From Rathayibacter sp. Leaf185 (GTDB lineage Bacteria > Actinomycetota > Actinomycetes > Actinomycetales > Microbacteriaceae): 64,000 nt of DNA. This document shows, in pieces, positions 2,925 through 9,982 of this stretch (positions are counted from its first letter, which is position 1; the number at the start of each line of letters is the position of its first letter). The notes beneath the pieces are model-generated. The model made no database searches. It saw nothing but the letters and a program-made list of their open reading frames with translations, and was not told the DNA's origin. Both the position numbers and the translations under genes were made by a program. The stretch spans positions 496,001 to 560,000 of the forward strand of contig NZ_LMPP01000001.1 in assembly GCF_001423885.1 (NCBI RefSeq). The letters run 5' to 3'.

Positions 2925-3557
2925 TCAGTAGGCGGTGTCGCCCCAGGAGGGCGCGGCGACCGGGTCGGCGTTCGGAGCGGACGCCGACGCCGACAGCTGC
3001 ACCTGGCCGGGGACGTCGGCGTTCAGCGTGTAGGTCAGCTCCGGGGTCGAGCGCGAGGCCGCGAGCGCCCCTCCCGACCAGGTGAAGACGTACTCCACCG
3101 CGCCCTTGAGGTCGGCCGTCGCCGCGGTCCAGCTCCAGCCGTCTCCGGCCAGCGCGACCGGGCGGGCGCCGACGCGCGCCGACGCCGGATAGCGCACGCG
3201 TACCGACAACGTCGTCACCGGCGCGCTCACCGCCGCGAAGTCCGAGCCCGTCCAGTAGCGGTTCTGCACCTGGATGCGGGTGTCGAGGCCGGTGCGGTGG
3301 CCCGATCCGTCCCAGTGGGCGTTGTTCTGCCAGGTGTCGAAGACGATCGTCGACGTCGCCCGGGTCGCGGGCGAGGTCGGTGCCGCTGAGGCGGCAGCGG
3401 CCGGAGTGGCGAAGGCGATCGCGATCACGGGAGCACTCCAGAGTGCGGCGCGGACGATCGACCGGCGATCGGTGGACGGGGTGCCCGAGGGCACGGCGGA
3501 GACGTCCGGCGCGCGGGAGTGCGCGCCGGAGTCACCCCGCAGGGGGGTCGTGGGCAT
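2925..3557 (-). CDS. exported protein with Tat-like signal, unknown function
   Basis: 210 residues from the ATG at 3557. Residues 25-60 form an export signal: DRRSIVRAALWSAP, a hydrophobic stretch (VIAIAFATPAAAAS) and an Ala-rich cleavage region. The twin arginine suggests Tat export. The mature part is beta-rich with Trp and Thr (WSWTAATADLKG, VRVRYPASARVG) and resembles a small immunoglobulin-like or adhesin-like domain, but no family is recognised. The gene at 5276 carries a nearly identical signal (RRTLLRGAVWSSP) and a different mature part, so the two are siblings in export mode. Upstream DNA holds a C8 tract and three inverted repeats. Confidence 0.7.
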   Translation of the reverse strand: MPTTPLRGDSGAHSRAPDVSAVPSGTPSTDRRSIVRAALWSAPVIAIAFATPAAAASAAPTSPATRATSTIVFDTWQNNAHWDGSGHRTGLDTRIQVQNRYWTGSDFAAVSAPVTTLSVRVRYPASARVGARPVALAGDGWSWTAATADLKGAVEYVFTWSGGALAASRSTPELTYTLNADVPGQVQLSASASAPNADPVAAPSWGDTAY

Positions 3558-3617
3558 GGGGGTGGTGCTCCAGGGTGTGCGGGTGTTCCGGGGGGGGTGG
3601 GGTCCGCCGTGGCGCCA

Positions 3618-3711
3618 CCGGGAGTTTCGGGTTCCCGGTCGCGGTGCGTGAGAGCTTCGGGTTCTCGACGCGGGCGGTGTTCTCGAGTGGCCGGGAGTTT
3701 CGGGTTCCCGG
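3618..3711. repeat. three spaced inverted repeats upstream of exported-protein gene
   Basis: Copies at 3618-3638 and 3691-3711 share arms CCGGGA and TCCCGG around a TTTCGGGT core. A variant at 3649-3669 has arms GAGA and TCTC around CTTCGGGT, so the stem changed on both sides while pairing was kept. Spacing between centres is about 31 and 42 bp. On the minus strand they lie 60-155 bp upstream of the start of the exported protein. An eight-G run sits at 3590-3597. The rest of 3558-4029 shows no gene; the possible reading frames through it have no recognisable protein. Confidence 0.6.
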
Positions 3712-4029
3712 CCGCCGAGGCGATCGCGAGCAGGCGCAGAACTGCAGCGCGGCTTCGGGTGCCGCACCCCATGCACCTGCATGGATATCGCGACCATAGT
3801 GCGCATTCCGTCGTGAGAGCAATGACTTTCGCCCGAACGACACCGTTCTGCCTCGCAAGGGGGCCGTTTTTCGAGGGGATCCGTTGCCGGCACGACGGAT
3901 CCCGCACATTTCGCGACATCGGCCGCGCACGTCGGCGTCACGACGATCGGCCGGACAGCGCGCTCGCGCTCGGAAGCACCGGCTCGTCAACCCGCAACAG
4001 CCGATCAGCGCCTCCAGTACCGTCACCCC

Positions 4030-5275: not shown

Positions 5276-5872
5276 ATGACCACGACCCCCGGCGCGGCAG
5301 CGCACGCCGAGCCCGGACCGGCTCGCCGCACCCTCCTGCGGGGAGCGGTGTGGTCCTCGCCCGTCGTCGTGGTCGCCCTCGCGACTCCGGCCGCCGCGGC
5401 CTCCACCGGCCTCTCGACCATCGAGGGCAACTGGTACCCCTACGACACCGAGCTGGCGATCGGGCAGAGCTCCGACATGACCATCGCCTTCATCGAGACC
5501 GCGGGAGTCGACTACACGGGGACCGTCTCGCTGCTCATCTCGCCGTCGCGCGCGACCGACACGATCATCGCGACGCTGTCCGCGTTCGGTCCGATCGTCG
5601 GCGAGGACGACGAGGCGGGCGTCTGGAGCTATGCGCAGGAGGGGACCCGGCTGCGCGTGACGTACACGGGGTACATGGAGGGCTCGATCGGCATCCGCGG
5701 CTACCTCGCGAGCGAGTACGGATCGGGCTTCCGGGTCGACACCGGAGGCCGGTACCTGCGCACCCGGACCGACCAGCAGATCACCGTCGACACCTCGAGA
5801 GCGGTCGCCGACCAGGTGCAGTACCGCTGGACGATGGAGTACGCGACCGACGGCGAGGGTGCTCCGGCCTGA
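5276..5872 (+). CDS. exported protein with Tat-like signal, paralogous signal to 2925-3557
   Basis: 198 residues. The N-terminus (PARRTLLRGAVWSSP then VVVVALATPAAAAS) matches the signal of the protein at 2925-3557, including the twin arginine and the ATPAAAAS cleavage region. The mature domain (from about residue 43) has alternating beta-type segments such as DYTGTVSLLISPS and RLRVTYTGYMEGS and no cysteine. No family is recognised. It is a single gene with no strong ribosome site before the ATG. The gene is bracketed by near-identical direct repeats at 5173-5192 and 5932-5950. Confidence 0.7.
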   Translation: MTTTPGAAAHAEPGPARRTLLRGAVWSSPVVVVALATPAAAASTGLSTIEGNWYPYDTELAIGQSSDMTIAFIETAGVDYTGTVSLLISPSRATDTIIATLSAFGPIVGEDDEAGVWSYAQEGTRLRVTYTGYMEGSIGIRGYLASEYGSGFRVDTGGRYLRTRTDQQITVDTSRAVADQVQYRWTMEYATDGEGAPA

Positions 5873-6113: not shown

Positions 6114-6767
6114 TCAGTGCCGCCCGATGATGCCGTCCCGCCGCGCCTCGGCGCGCAGCGCGATCTTCGTGCTGACGCTCCTGCCGTCGGCCCGGTACTT
6201 GGCGCGAGCGCTCCGGAGCGAGCTGCGCGCGGCGTCCTGAGTGATCCCGAGGGAGCTCGCGACCTGCTTGAGCGACATCCCCTCGACGAAGAGGCCGACG
6301 ATCCGCCGCTCCCGGGCGCTGAGCGAGGCGGTGGCGCCGCTCGCCTGCGCCTCGGCGCTCGGTACCCGCCCTCCCGCCGCAGCGGTGCGGATCGCGTCGA
6401 TGATCACCTCCGTCGGCTCGCTCTTGACCAGGTAGCCGCACGCGCCGGCCTCGAGCGCGCGCGCGACCGTCTCGGGCCGCGAGTGGGTGCTGATGATGAT
6501 CGTCGCGGCGCCGGCCGCGGTGAGGGTCCGGATCTTCATGGCGAGGTCGAGATCGTCTCCGAGGTCGACGTCGAGCAGGACCACGTCGGTGGGGAACGCG
6601 GGATGGGCGAGCAGATCGATCCAGCGGCTCGCGGTCGCGACGACGCGGATGCTCGATCCGGAGCGGTTCACCCACTCGGTCAGCGCCCGGAGCAGGATCG
6701 GGTGGTCGTCGAGGATCGCCACGGCGAGCTCCTCGGCGGGGAGGTCGCCGGTCTCCGCGTGACTCAT
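6114..6767 (-). CDS. LuxR/NarL-type response regulator
   Basis: 217 residues. The receiver domain has the acidic pocket (ILDDHP), the phosphoacceptor Asp66 in VVLLDVDLG, the switch residue in ISTHSRPE and the conserved Lys in YLVKSEP. The C-terminal GerE helix-turn-helix (about 150-205) reads SLSARERRIVGLFVEGMSLK and then QVASSLGITQDAARSSLRSA. The start ATG overlaps the stop of the upstream membrane gene as ATGA, so it is the last gene of a three-gene signalling operon. It likely binds DNA when phosphorylated by the kinase at 7975-9282; its targets are unknown. Confidence 0.9.
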   Translation of the reverse strand: MSHAETGDLPAEELAVAILDDHPILLRALTEWVNRSGSSIRVVATASRWIDLLAHPAFPTDVVLLDVDLGDDLDLAMKIRTLTAAGAATIIISTHSRPETVARALEAGACGYLVKSEPTEVIIDAIRTAAAGGRVPSAEAQASGATASLSARERRIVGLFVEGMSLKQVASSLGITQDAARSSLRSARAKYRADGRSVSTKIALRAEARRDGIIGRH

Positions 6768-7978
6768 GTCGAGGGCCTCCGTGCGGCGGTGTGGTCGAGG
6801 CGGAGCGTCGTGCGCACGCCGACTGCGGTGACCCTGTAGTCGCCCAGCTCGCTCAGGATGCCCCAGATCGCCGCGTCGAGGTCGCGCGACCGCACTCCCT
6901 CTGCCTCCAGAACGAGGGACACCGCGCGGGGCTCCCGGCCCGACGAGAGCGTGAGCGCGATCGAGGGCGTCCTCGACGCGATCGACGGTGCCGACAGCAG
7001 CCAGAGCACCGACAGCAGGCGCGCCCGGTCCGGCGGCCTCAACGCGGCGGCGAGATTCCCGTCGTCCTCGAGCGAGACGGTTCCCGAGAGATGCGCCGAC
7101 TCCTCGATCGCGATGCTCAGCCAGGTCTGGTCGTGGCTGCGTGCCAGCGCGGTGCGCAGCTCGTCGCCGAGACGCCGCGCTCGCTCGCCCATCGCGGCGT
7201 CGAGCGGCTCGGTGCGCACCCGGCCGAGCAGCTCCTCGACCTGTGCGTCGACCCTCGAGATCTCGGAGGAGGCGATGCTGCCCGGCCCGGTGCCCGGCCC
7301 GTCGACCACGCTCTCGGCGATCGAGCGGTCGAGGGAGCGGTGGACGTGGCGATCGAGCGTCGTCAGCAGCGAGACGCAGACGAAGACCGGAGCCAGCGCG
7401 AGCAGGATGGTGGTGACGCTGAGCCCGAGGCCGCGGTGGCCGATCAGTGCCTGCACGAGCATGCCGAGCGCGCTCAGCCCCACCAGAAGGCCGACCGCCC
7501 CCCAGGTGCGCGAGAGCGGCTGGAACGAGATCAGCGCCATCAGGGTCGCCCCGATGCCCACGCAGACGCTCGGGTAGTACGACCGCGACGGGTCCGTCAG
7601 GCCGAAGTCGGAGAACTCGAGGAGCAGCGCGACGGTGTCGACCACGAGGACGGCGGCGAGGACCCCCCTCGGCAGCTCGCCGCGGTGGAGCAGCGCGACT
7701 GCGACTCCGGCCACGAGCCCGGCGATCACGACGAGCCACGCGGCGCCGCTCAGCCAGGTCGCCGAGTGCGTGCTGAGAGCCCAGAGGAACGACGCGAGAC
7801 CGCGGATCACGATGAGCACCGCCATCCCGACGAAGCCGAGGCCGAGGTAGCTGGCGCTGAGTCGATGAGTCCGCGTGATCCGGTGCCGGACAGACTCCAG
7901 CGTCCGCGAGCCCGTCTCGGCGGCACGGACGAGCTCGAGGAGCGTCCCCTCCCCGACCGCGTCCTCGCGCCGGCTCAT
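6764..7978 (-). CDS. membrane protein with degenerate histidine-kinase-like C-terminus
   Basis: 404 residues between a true kinase and a response regulator, coupled to both by ATGA overlaps. Residues 40-215 hold about six membrane helices. The C-terminal third has the layout of a kinase dimerisation helix (LGDELRTALARSHDQTW) and an ATPase-like end (LGDYRVTAVGVRTTLRLD), but no H-box His, no N-box Asn and no glycine-rich G boxes. I infer a pseudokinase that senses or scaffolds for the partner kinase. No close named family is recognised, so it may equally be an accessory sensor with chance resemblance. Confidence 0.6.
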   Translation of the reverse strand: MSRREDAVGEGTLLELVRAAETGSRTLESVRHRITRTHRLSASYLGLGFVGMAVLIVIRGLASFLWALSTHSATWLSGAAWLVVIAGLVAGVAVALLHRGELPRGVLAAVLVVDTVALLLEFSDFGLTDPSRSYYPSVCVGIGATLMALISFQPLSRTWGAVGLLVGLSALGMLVQALIGHRGLGLSVTTILLALAPVFVCVSLLTTLDRHVHRSLDRSIAESVVDGPGTGPGSIASSEISRVDAQVEELLGRVRTEPLDAAMGERARRLGDELRTALARSHDQTWLSIAIEESAHLSGTVSLEDDGNLAAALRPPDRARLLSVLWLLSAPSIASRTPSIALTLSSGREPRAVSLVLEAEGVRSRDLDAAIWGILSELGDYRVTAVGVRTTLRLDHTAARRPST

Positions 7979-9282
7979 CGCGGCACGCTCATCAGGACGG
8001 TCGTCCCCGCACCCGGGGCGGAGAACACGCGGACGTCGCCGCCGACGGCCTCGAGGCGGGCGACGACCGACTCCGCGAGCCCGAGCCGGCCGGCGGGAAC
8101 CTCGTCGGGCGAGAAGCCCCTCCCGGCGTCCGAGACGGCGACGCGGACCGTCTCCGGGTCCTCGGCGACCGTCACGTCGACGGCGAGGACGCCGGAGTGC
8201 CTCCGCACGTTCTCGAGGCACTCCCCCGTCGCGCGCACCAGGGCGTCGAGGGCGGAAGCGGCGAGCGCGTCGTCGGCGGGTCCGACCGCTCTCGTCGTGT
8301 GCCAGGCGATCTCGAGACCGACCGCCTCGAAGCGCCTCTCGAGCGCGGCGAACGCGGCGGGCAGGGGCACGGGGTCGGAGTCGACCGGCCGCACCTCCTC
8401 GGCGCCCGGCCGGCCGAGGCGCCGCAGCAGCCCGAGGTCGGCGGCGGCCTGCGCCTGGACGGTGTCGGCAGCCACGCCCTCGCCGCGGTGGGCGACCAGC
8501 GTGAGAGTGCCGAGGATGGTGTCGTGCAGCAGGCGCGCGTCGTAGCGGCGGCGGGCCTCGCTCTCGCTGGAGCGCCGCTCGGCGGCGTGCGCGGTCCGCA
8601 GCCGGGCCGTGCCGACATGCGCGCGCTCGACGCTGGCTGCCAGCCAGCGCGCCGCGGCGGTGAGCACCGCCCAGCAGACCACCACCGAGAGGGCGACGAA
8701 GAAGGCGCGCCCCGACTCCCACGTGGCCGCGAGAGCGAAGGCGAGGGTGGGGACCACACCGGCGAGGGCGATCACGGGGAGACGCCTGGCCGTGCCGATC
8801 GCGAAGAGCGCCGAGGGGATCGCCATCGACGCGATCATCGTGACTCCCCCGATCACCGCGGGGATGCGCCCGTCGACCCCCGGGGCAAGCGAGGCGGCGA
8901 GCCCCGCGACGCCGAGAGCGGTGCCGACGATCACGGCGACCCCGCCGCCCGGACCCGACCGGCGGCCGACGAGGAGGACGACGGCCGCGACCGAGAGCAG
9001 GAGGAGCACCGGCAGCGCGGCCAGGAGACCCGCCGGGTCGAGGGTGAGCAGGTGCAGCGCCGAGGCGGCGGTGAAGACGCCGCCGGCGAGCCGGGCGCAG
9101 ACGATCCCGACGTCGGACTGCTCCCTGCGGAGGACGTCCTGGGAGGAGCGGCCGAGGGTCCTCGGAGCGGGCAACGGCGACCTCGGCGGAGGAGGCTCCC
9201 GGGACGCGGCGGCCCGGGAGGCGGTGGACGGGGGATCATCGTGACACACCGGCACCCGCTGTGTTACGGCCGACGGTCGCAT
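7975..9282 (-). CDS. membrane sensor histidine kinase (HisKA_3 type)
   Basis: 435 residues if the ATG at 9282 is used. Five to six membrane helices lie between about 60 and 215. The dimerisation box is YDARLLHDTILGTLTLVA with His253 as phosphoacceptor. The ATPase domain shows ECLENVRRHSG (N box), VSDAGRGFSPDEVP (G1) and GRLGLAESVVARLEAVGG (G2). It phosphorylates the response regulator two genes downstream (inference from the operon). The first 55 residues are Pro/Arg-rich and a later start is possible. The stop overlaps the next gene's ATG. Confidence 0.88.
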   Translation of the reverse strand: MRPSAVTQRVPVCHDDPPSTASRAAASREPPPPRSPLPAPRTLGRSSQDVLRREQSDVGIVCARLAGGVFTAASALHLLTLDPAGLLAALPVLLLLSVAAVVLLVGRRSGPGGGVAVIVGTALGVAGLAASLAPGVDGRIPAVIGGVTMIASMAIPSALFAIGTARRLPVIALAGVVPTLAFALAATWESGRAFFVALSVVVCWAVLTAAARWLAASVERAHVGTARLRTAHAAERRSSESEARRRYDARLLHDTILGTLTLVAHRGEGVAADTVQAQAAADLGLLRRLGRPGAEEVRPVDSDPVPLPAAFAALERRFEAVGLEIAWHTTRAVGPADDALAASALDALVRATGECLENVRRHSGVLAVDVTVAEDPETVRVAVSDAGRGFSPDEVPAGRLGLAESVVARLEAVGGDVRVFSAPGAGTTVLMSVPR

Positions 9283-9722
9283 TCGGTGCGTCCCATCCCG
9301 TAGGGTGGAGGCATCTCCTGGGCACTCGCCCGAATTCCACGGCTGAGAAGTCGCACCACGACGAAGAGACTCAGCCCCTGATAGAGACCGCCACGATCAC
9401 TGGCGCAGAGCTCGACGGCCCCACCCTCACCGGTTCCGGCCTCGGTTCGGCCCCCGATCGCACGGTTCGAACGCCCGCCTCGCCCGCGGGTACCGCCCTT
9501 CACAGGACGCCGCGGAAGCCGCGCCGTTCCTCGTTCGACCCCCGCCCCACCGACTCCGTCGGCTCGCGGGACGTTCTCCCCCGCAGAGCTGCCGTTCTCG
9601 TGCAGAACAGCATCCTCCGCCCCCACAACGACCCGGACGACTCCCTCCCGACGCGTGATTCATCCGCGCAGCGCTCACCGGCGCAGGGGCGGAGCCGGTC
9701 GGGTACCGCACACTCGTGCGGA

Positions 9723-9751
9723 ATATAGAAGACGTCGGCCCCGGCCGCGTC
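9723..9751 (+). promoter_or_regulatory. candidate -10 element and hairpin in cold-shock gene leader
   Basis: A TATAGA hexamer at 9724-9729 is followed at once by GACGTCGGCCCCGGCCGCGTC (9731-9751), which can fold with GACG/CGTC and CGGC/GCCG arms. No good -35 element is found 17 bp upstream. A strong ribosome site AAGGA (9762-9766) precedes the ATG at 9773. The remaining stretch 9283-9722 has a TAGGGT hexamer at 9301-9306 that might be an earlier promoter, but no gene or RNA I can recognise. Confidence 0.35.
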
Positions 9752-9772
9752 ACCATCACGTAAGGAAAAGAC

Positions 9773-9982
9773 ATGCCTACTGGCACCGTTAAGTGGTTCA
9801 ACTCCGAAAAGGGCTTCGGCTTCATCGCTCCCGACGACGGAGGCGCCGACGTGTTCGCGCACTTCTCCGCCATCGCGAAGCAGGGCTACCGCGAGCTCGT
9901 CGAGAACCAGCACGTCGAGTACGACGTCGAGCAGGGCCGCAAGGGCCCGCAGGCCGCGAACATCCGCGGCGTCGGCGAGTAA
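9773..9982 (+). CDS. CspA family cold-shock protein
   Basis: 69 residues, the typical single cold-shock domain. The RNA-binding motifs are KGFGFIAP (RNP1, residues 14-21) and VFAHFSAI (RNP2, 28-35); it starts with [13 protein letters not shown] and ends with GPQAANI as in other CspA proteins. These proteins bind single-stranded RNA and act as RNA chaperones in the cytoplasm. It has a clear ribosome site (AAGGA) and is a single gene between a divergent kinase and a terminator cluster. The 490-bp gap upstream leaves room for a structured, temperature-sensitive leader. Confidence 0.95.

Follow-up and report, generated by a model that had tools for sequence, protein, structure and literature searches.

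The window analysed here is a stretch of 64,000 nucleotides from Rathayibacter sp. Leaf185 (NCBI RefSeq assembly GCF_001423885.1, contig NZ_LMPP01000001.1, positions 496,001 to 560,000). Three coupled genes on its reverse strand encode a histidine kinase (HK), a membrane protein named MID after its middle position, and a response regulator (RR) (Table 1). On its predicted fold, MID is a pseudo-histidine kinase (pseudo-HK), a catalytically dead relative of HKs. It probably joins the active HK in an asymmetric, hetero-oligomeric sensor complex that drives a single RR. Sensor kinases are usually taught as homodimers. The pairing of an active HK with a dead one in the genomes searched, and the fusion of such pairs elsewhere, thus offers a tractable test of why asymmetry arises, and MID, which has no Pfam family, can now be assigned to a family.

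The three genes follow each other in the order HK, MID, RR and both junctions are four-nucleotide ATGA overlaps, as a first-pass annotation of the sequence had proposed. HK has a Pfam match to HATPase_c (6e-10), a weak match to HisKA_3 under the Pfam cut-off, and the motifs LLHDT (H-box), ECLENVRRH (N-box) and DAGRGF (G-box). Its start codon at 9282 is uncertain, conservation in the HK alignment beginning downstream of this position. The identification of HK as MacS of the MacRS system (NCBIfam NF047322) was rejected, the score being 69.7 bits for a cut-off of 300. RR matches Response_reg and GerE/sigma70-r4 helix-turn-helix families (LuxR-type), and its residues Asp20, Asp21, Asp66 and Lys115 are invariant in the 35 sequences of alignment A3. 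Hydropathy gives six transmembrane segments each for the HK and MID of the window, and five for one other MID (L018). The genome of Leaf185 carries two such trios, the window copy and a second one called here the core copy (L031).

MID has none of the residues expected of an active HK, i.e., an H-box His and the pair formed by the N-box Asn and the G1-box Asp. Among 120 MID sequences (about 111 distinct ones, nine genes having been fetched twice), residue 244 is always Asp and residue 243 is Leu, Ile or Val, so that no His is found at either position. Residues W286, R318, W326 and G379 are also invariant in all 120. These residues were further compared in a joint MAFFT alignment of 40 sequences (18 HK, 12 wider pseudo-HK and 10 MID rows), in which two fused first-half rows (L142 and L135) are cut off before the H-box. 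The phospho-His column contains Asp244 in 10/10 MID rows, although the true register may differ by one residue. The N-box Asn is found in 18/18 HK rows and in none of the 12 wider pseudo-HK or 10 MID rows, which bears out the absence of both His and Asn noticed in the first-pass annotation. In the same way, the G1 Asp is present in 18/18 HK and 0/10 MID rows; six of the 12 wider pseudo-HK rows have Asp in this column, which is poorly aligned. Furthermore, the CA-like domain of MID is shortened in the expected ATP-lid region.

MID could not be assigned to a known family: no Pfam family matched at E<=5 and NCBIfam gave only two irrelevant models (E 0.043 and 0.36). No LiaF-type C-terminal domain was matched in Pfam at E<=5 either, a missing match that does not prove absence. 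An AlphaFold model of MID (pLDDT 83) displays six long helices, a DHp-like hairpin and a reduced CA-like domain. Its structural matches are mostly HK folds, including chains of DivL, RetS and ChpT, and not an unrelated fold. The MID profile aligns with the HK profile weakly and over the CA domain only (prob 38, E 3.3e-4). Because MID matches a wider pseudo-HK family (prob 96.9, E 1.4e-10 across 294 columns) that is itself homologous with HKs over both DHp and CA (prob 95.0, E 3.7e-8) and often fused to them, it can nevertheless be linked to HKs. Control comparisons with the RR profile were negative. Among PDB sequences, the MID profile found nothing relevant (E 0.31 and 1.2) and the wider pseudo-HK profile a single weak match to a sensor protein (E 0.34). 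Both profiles and model thus point to a relationship with the DHp-CA region of HKs, and the kinase-like character that had been read from the ends of the protein holds.

The three genes are inherited together. In a survey of 60 related genomes, that of Leaf185 included, MID occurs in 28, all of them among the 37 genomes of the same family and none among the 23 outside it. The core RR (E<=1e-40) and core HK (E<=1e-25) are confined to the same 28 genomes. At the thresholds applied, 31 of the 32 others lack HK, MID and RR alike, and the remaining genome (G051, from another family) contributes just a distant orphan RR (L128:5470-6192, minus strand). This RR shares about 50% identity with the core RR, and its neighbourhood gave no significant match to HK or MID. 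MID was never lost alone in these 60 genomes. The system is therefore a fixed, co-inherited set of three components, as had been supposed, and MID does not turn out to be absent from relatives that keep HK and RR.

Gene order is also conserved in the Microbacteriaceae, a check that the first-pass annotation had suggested. HK, MID and RR follow each other on one strand in 37 of the 40 copies first examined, the exceptions being L010, L011 and L029. A scan of named genomes, from which the best 80 of 224 loci were taken, gave loci from Microbacteriaceae genera (Rathayibacter, Clavibacter, Cryobacterium, Leifsonia, Salinibacterium and others) or from unplaced actinobacterial bins. Of these 80, 78 contain the whole trio and two stop at contig edges. 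Automated scoring recognized the trio in 81/86 loci. Of the five that it missed, three (L122, L123 and L127) run in the reverse orientation but have all three genes, and two (L096 and L112) stop shortly after MID or within it. Of the 40 copies examined, 38 could be scored (all but L004 and L010), and 36 of these offer a start of MID at -4 relative to the end of HK, as do 78/80 named loci. The MID/RR junction is at -4 in the ten window-type copies; in the core copy, a short gap mostly separates the two genes, and the median in named loci is 38 nt (n=78, one negative). The dN/dS values of HK, MID and RR relative to two relatives range from 0.23 to 0.39 (0.30 and 0.39 for MID). Together with conservation and coupling, they lead to rejection of chance open reading frames (ORFs) or an annotation artefact.

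MID is confined to the Microbacteriaceae in the 60-genome survey, and nearly so in a profile search at the order level, which gave matches in 6/149 genomes, including that of Leaf185. The one weak match outside (G157, E 7e-7) is a pseudo-HK (P0004) encoded directly behind an HK. This protein led to the wider actinobacterial family: at the class level, P0004 as query matches 12/197 genomes and its profile 33/246, some of them weakly. Five distinct HK-pseudoHK-RR operons were found in this family (L132, L133/L151, L134/L150, L144/L153 and L168). Furthermore, HK and pseudo-HK are encoded by a single ORF in 20 of the 30 loci examined, of which 18 come from family f36, one from f37 (L169, with a partial HK match) and one from f45 (L171). 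In the 18 fused f36 proteins, the first half has invariant H196, D197, N289, D316, G318 and G320, and no invariant His is found in the second half. In 14 of these 18, the HK half is matched by the pseudo-HK profile as well (E<=1e-3, best 2.9e-17), an indication of internal duplication behind these fusions. As Rosetta-stone evidence, these natural fusions suggest that HK and pseudo-HK form one physical unit, since relatives of MID are joined to an HK elsewhere.

In the proposed complex, HK and MID would most likely associate via their membrane domains and DHp-like helices. HK would supply ATP binding and the phospho-His, and MID could contribute sensing and/or allosteric control, setting the kinase/phosphatase balance of HK. 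The LuxR-type RR would be phosphorylated or dephosphorylated by HK alone. The HK-MID contact in the Microbacteriaceae, the direction of control (activator or brake), the signal and the regulon all belong to the part of this reading that we infer.

Other roles of MID can be envisaged. It could be a separate membrane sensor, LiaF-like or UhpC-like, whose homodimers would touch HK homodimers from outside with no common DHp heterodimer. The six-transmembrane, sensor-like membrane domain would fit such a role, and UhpC is a membrane accessory protein that acts on an HK. LiaF, mentioned in PMC12675982, provides another example. However, the MID model retains a DHp-like hairpin and a CA-like domain, and the in-line fusion of related proteins to an HK fits a common dimer better than an outside accessory, which makes a separate sensor rather unlikely. 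It appears still less likely that MID acts on RR instead of HK, in the manner of DivL or ChpT, binding RR or RR~P as adaptor, sink or reader. The DivL and ChpT chains among the structural matches would agree with this, as would the fact that almost every complete locus has an RR next to HK and MID. Nevertheless, the tightest coupling is that between HK and MID, not that between MID and RR, and the fusions observed join pseudo-HK to HK and not to RR. RR is also transcribed divergently upstream of HK in L011 and L029, an arrangement that argues against RR as the target and at the same time departs from the common gene order.

Several other observations weigh against a uniformly intact three-gene system. 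In the window-type copy of G013 (L010/L183), RR is intact, HK gave no match and MID is reduced to its C-terminal half. HK is split by a frameshift in G006 (L004), G012 (L024) and apparently G023 (L027), and the MID match of L027 is restricted to the C-terminal half. The -4 start is absent in L015 and L027 among the first 40 copies and in L047, from a genome with a split HK, and L105 among the named loci. In the wider family, 5/30 loci (L170, L172-L175) encode ordinary HKs or gave matches too weak for a decision, and L158 lies at a contig edge. The damaged copies (L004, L024, L027 and L010/L183) could be assembly errors or decay. Together with the loss of catalytic residues from MID, they are what would be expected if MID were a decaying duplicate without function. 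Such a vestigial status is highly improbable and was rejected, being contradicted by the constraint on the sequence: five residues (D244, W286, R318, W326 and G379) are invariant, dN/dS is low and MID is never lost without its partners. The asymmetric complex of HK and MID thus remains the reading that we favour.

A broader view, which is plausible but on balance doubtful, is that these proteins belong to an ancient actinobacterial class of obligately asymmetric sensor kinases, with one live and one dead HK half per receptor. The halves would be encoded by two adjacent or overlapping genes in the Microbacteriaceae and some other families and by a tandem polypeptide elsewhere (18/20 fusions in one family). 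The invariant Asp that replaces the phospho-His in the Microbacteriaceae may mimic a charged DHp or keep it poised, and the dead half would in this way set the kinase/phosphatase balance of the live one. There could also be two possible outputs, a paralogous LuxR-type RR being encoded upstream of HK in at least 38 of the 80 named loci, some of which lie on short contigs (order RR2-HK-MID-RR1, e.g., L058:3752-4417).

Various known systems resemble the trio in part. LiaFSR and UhpABC likewise combine a membrane accessory protein with an HK and a LuxR-type RR; to our knowledge, LiaF and UhpC are not derived from HKs, unlike MID. DivL, RetS and ChpT have an HK fold, yet their signalling does without the usual HK chemistry. 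They belong to other clades and, as far as we know, are not encoded in an HK-x-RR operon of the MID kind. The Fas kinases are of the AgrC-like (HPK10) type, unlike the HK described here, which is of the HisKA_3/NarL type. RocA is not known to be encoded in an operon with its HK and RR, whereas MID lies in one overlapping operon with its own.

The trio would work in the manner of FasBCA of group A Streptococcus, where two HK-like proteins with six transmembrane segments and one RR are co-transcribed. FasB and FasC are reported to heterodimerize, the kinase domain of FasC is dispensable and FasC retains its phospho-acceptor His246 (PMC12675982), whereas MID has lost this His together with the N-box Asn and G1 Asp. 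The likeness is probably due to convergence. RocA is described as a membrane pseudokinase with six transmembrane segments that contacts the HK CovS and indirectly raises the level of phosphorylated RR; its predicted acceptor His is present but dispensable (PMC7028121), while MID has none. Among actinobacteria, a truncated HK of Corynebacterium, the pseudokinase ChrS, boosts signalling via the paralogous HK HrrS. The native proteins are reported to heterodimerize and the truncated form gave no interaction; this form is a laboratory-evolved mutant (PMC9491836), unlike the naturally conserved MID family. The association of an HK, an HK-like partner and an RR therefore has working precedents in FasBCA and RocA/CovS, and the earlier impression that no named system matches the trio has to be qualified. 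No description of the MID family, its breadth or the HK-pseudoHK fusions was found in the literature searched, which lies mostly outside subscription journals.

According to all three gene trees, the window-type trio branched off as one unit. Phylogenies built with FastTree from 33 loci (7/40 being dropped: L004, L010, L011, L024, L027, L029 and L034) separate the eight window-type loci with a support of 1.0 for each of HK, MID and RR. Patristic distances of HK and MID are correlated at 0.977, those of RR with one or the other at 0.895 and 0.886. Alignment coverage was 38/40 copies for A1, 34/39 for A2 and 35/40 for A3. The A2 row of L024 is partly off frame because of a frameshift and the A1 rows of L010 and L027 carry unrelated N-terminal stretches; these rows were left unrepaired. 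The window-type trio is missing from all five genomes of the same genus that were checked, each of which has a single MID match in the 60-genome survey. The empty site is visible in G001, G002 and G012, where the flanking membrane-protein gene abuts the leader of the cold-shock gene csp; in G004 and G008, csp is outside the retrieved flank.

Table 1. Features of the HK-MID-RR trio in the window (positions are those of the window)
Feature	Position	Strand	Details or basis
HK, histidine kinase	7975..9282	-	435 aa; six predicted transmembrane segments, HisKA_3-type DHp, N-box, G-box
HK phospho-acceptor His253 in H-box LLHDT	about 8524-8526	-	motif
ATGA overlap, HK stop / MID start	7975..7978	-	sequence
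MID, membrane pseudo-histidine kinase	6764..7978	-	404 aa; profiles, alignments, structure model
MID membrane domain, six predicted transmembrane segments, residues about 47-202	7373..7840	-	hydropathy; six long helices in model
MID DHp-like helical hairpin, residues 234-256 and 261-281	7136..7279	-	alignment, model
MID invariant Asp244, in or beside the phospho-His column	7247-7249	-	alignment
MID CA-like (HATPase_c-like) degenerate domain, residues about 284-400	6779..7129	-	profile, alignment, model
ATGA overlap, MID stop / RR start (window-type copy)	6764..6767	-	sequence
RR, response regulator, receiver and LuxR-type helix-turn-helix	6114..6767	-	217 aa; Pfam, alignment

In all 61 loci longer than 12 kb, metX is found upstream of the core trio and in the same orientation, and 59 of them also have metY. 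The core RR is 96-100% identical across the 15 genomes of the genus of the window. Conservation is lower for MID and for HK, the core HK having identities of 63-90% outside its own genome. Given its wide occurrence in the Microbacteriaceae, the near identity of RR and the constant presence of metX upstream, the core trio probably governs a basic function. The metY-metX pair itself (e.g., L041:2084-4742) is a candidate link to sulfur or methionine metabolism.

Other features were noticed in the window. The leader of csp (9295-9772, plus strand; csp itself at 9773-9982) is non-coding and very strongly conserved in 12 loci of the same genus, with long invariant blocks. Its predicted fold has 7/95 pairs changed on both sides and a covariation term near zero, and Rfam gave no significant match; the leader is possibly a structured cold-shock 5' untranslated region. 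The product of 5276-5872 (plus strand), which has no Pfam match, and that of 2925-3941 (minus strand) both look exported. They have in common an N-terminal twin-arginine pattern, which we take to resemble a Tat signal, followed by WS.PV and ATPAAAAS.
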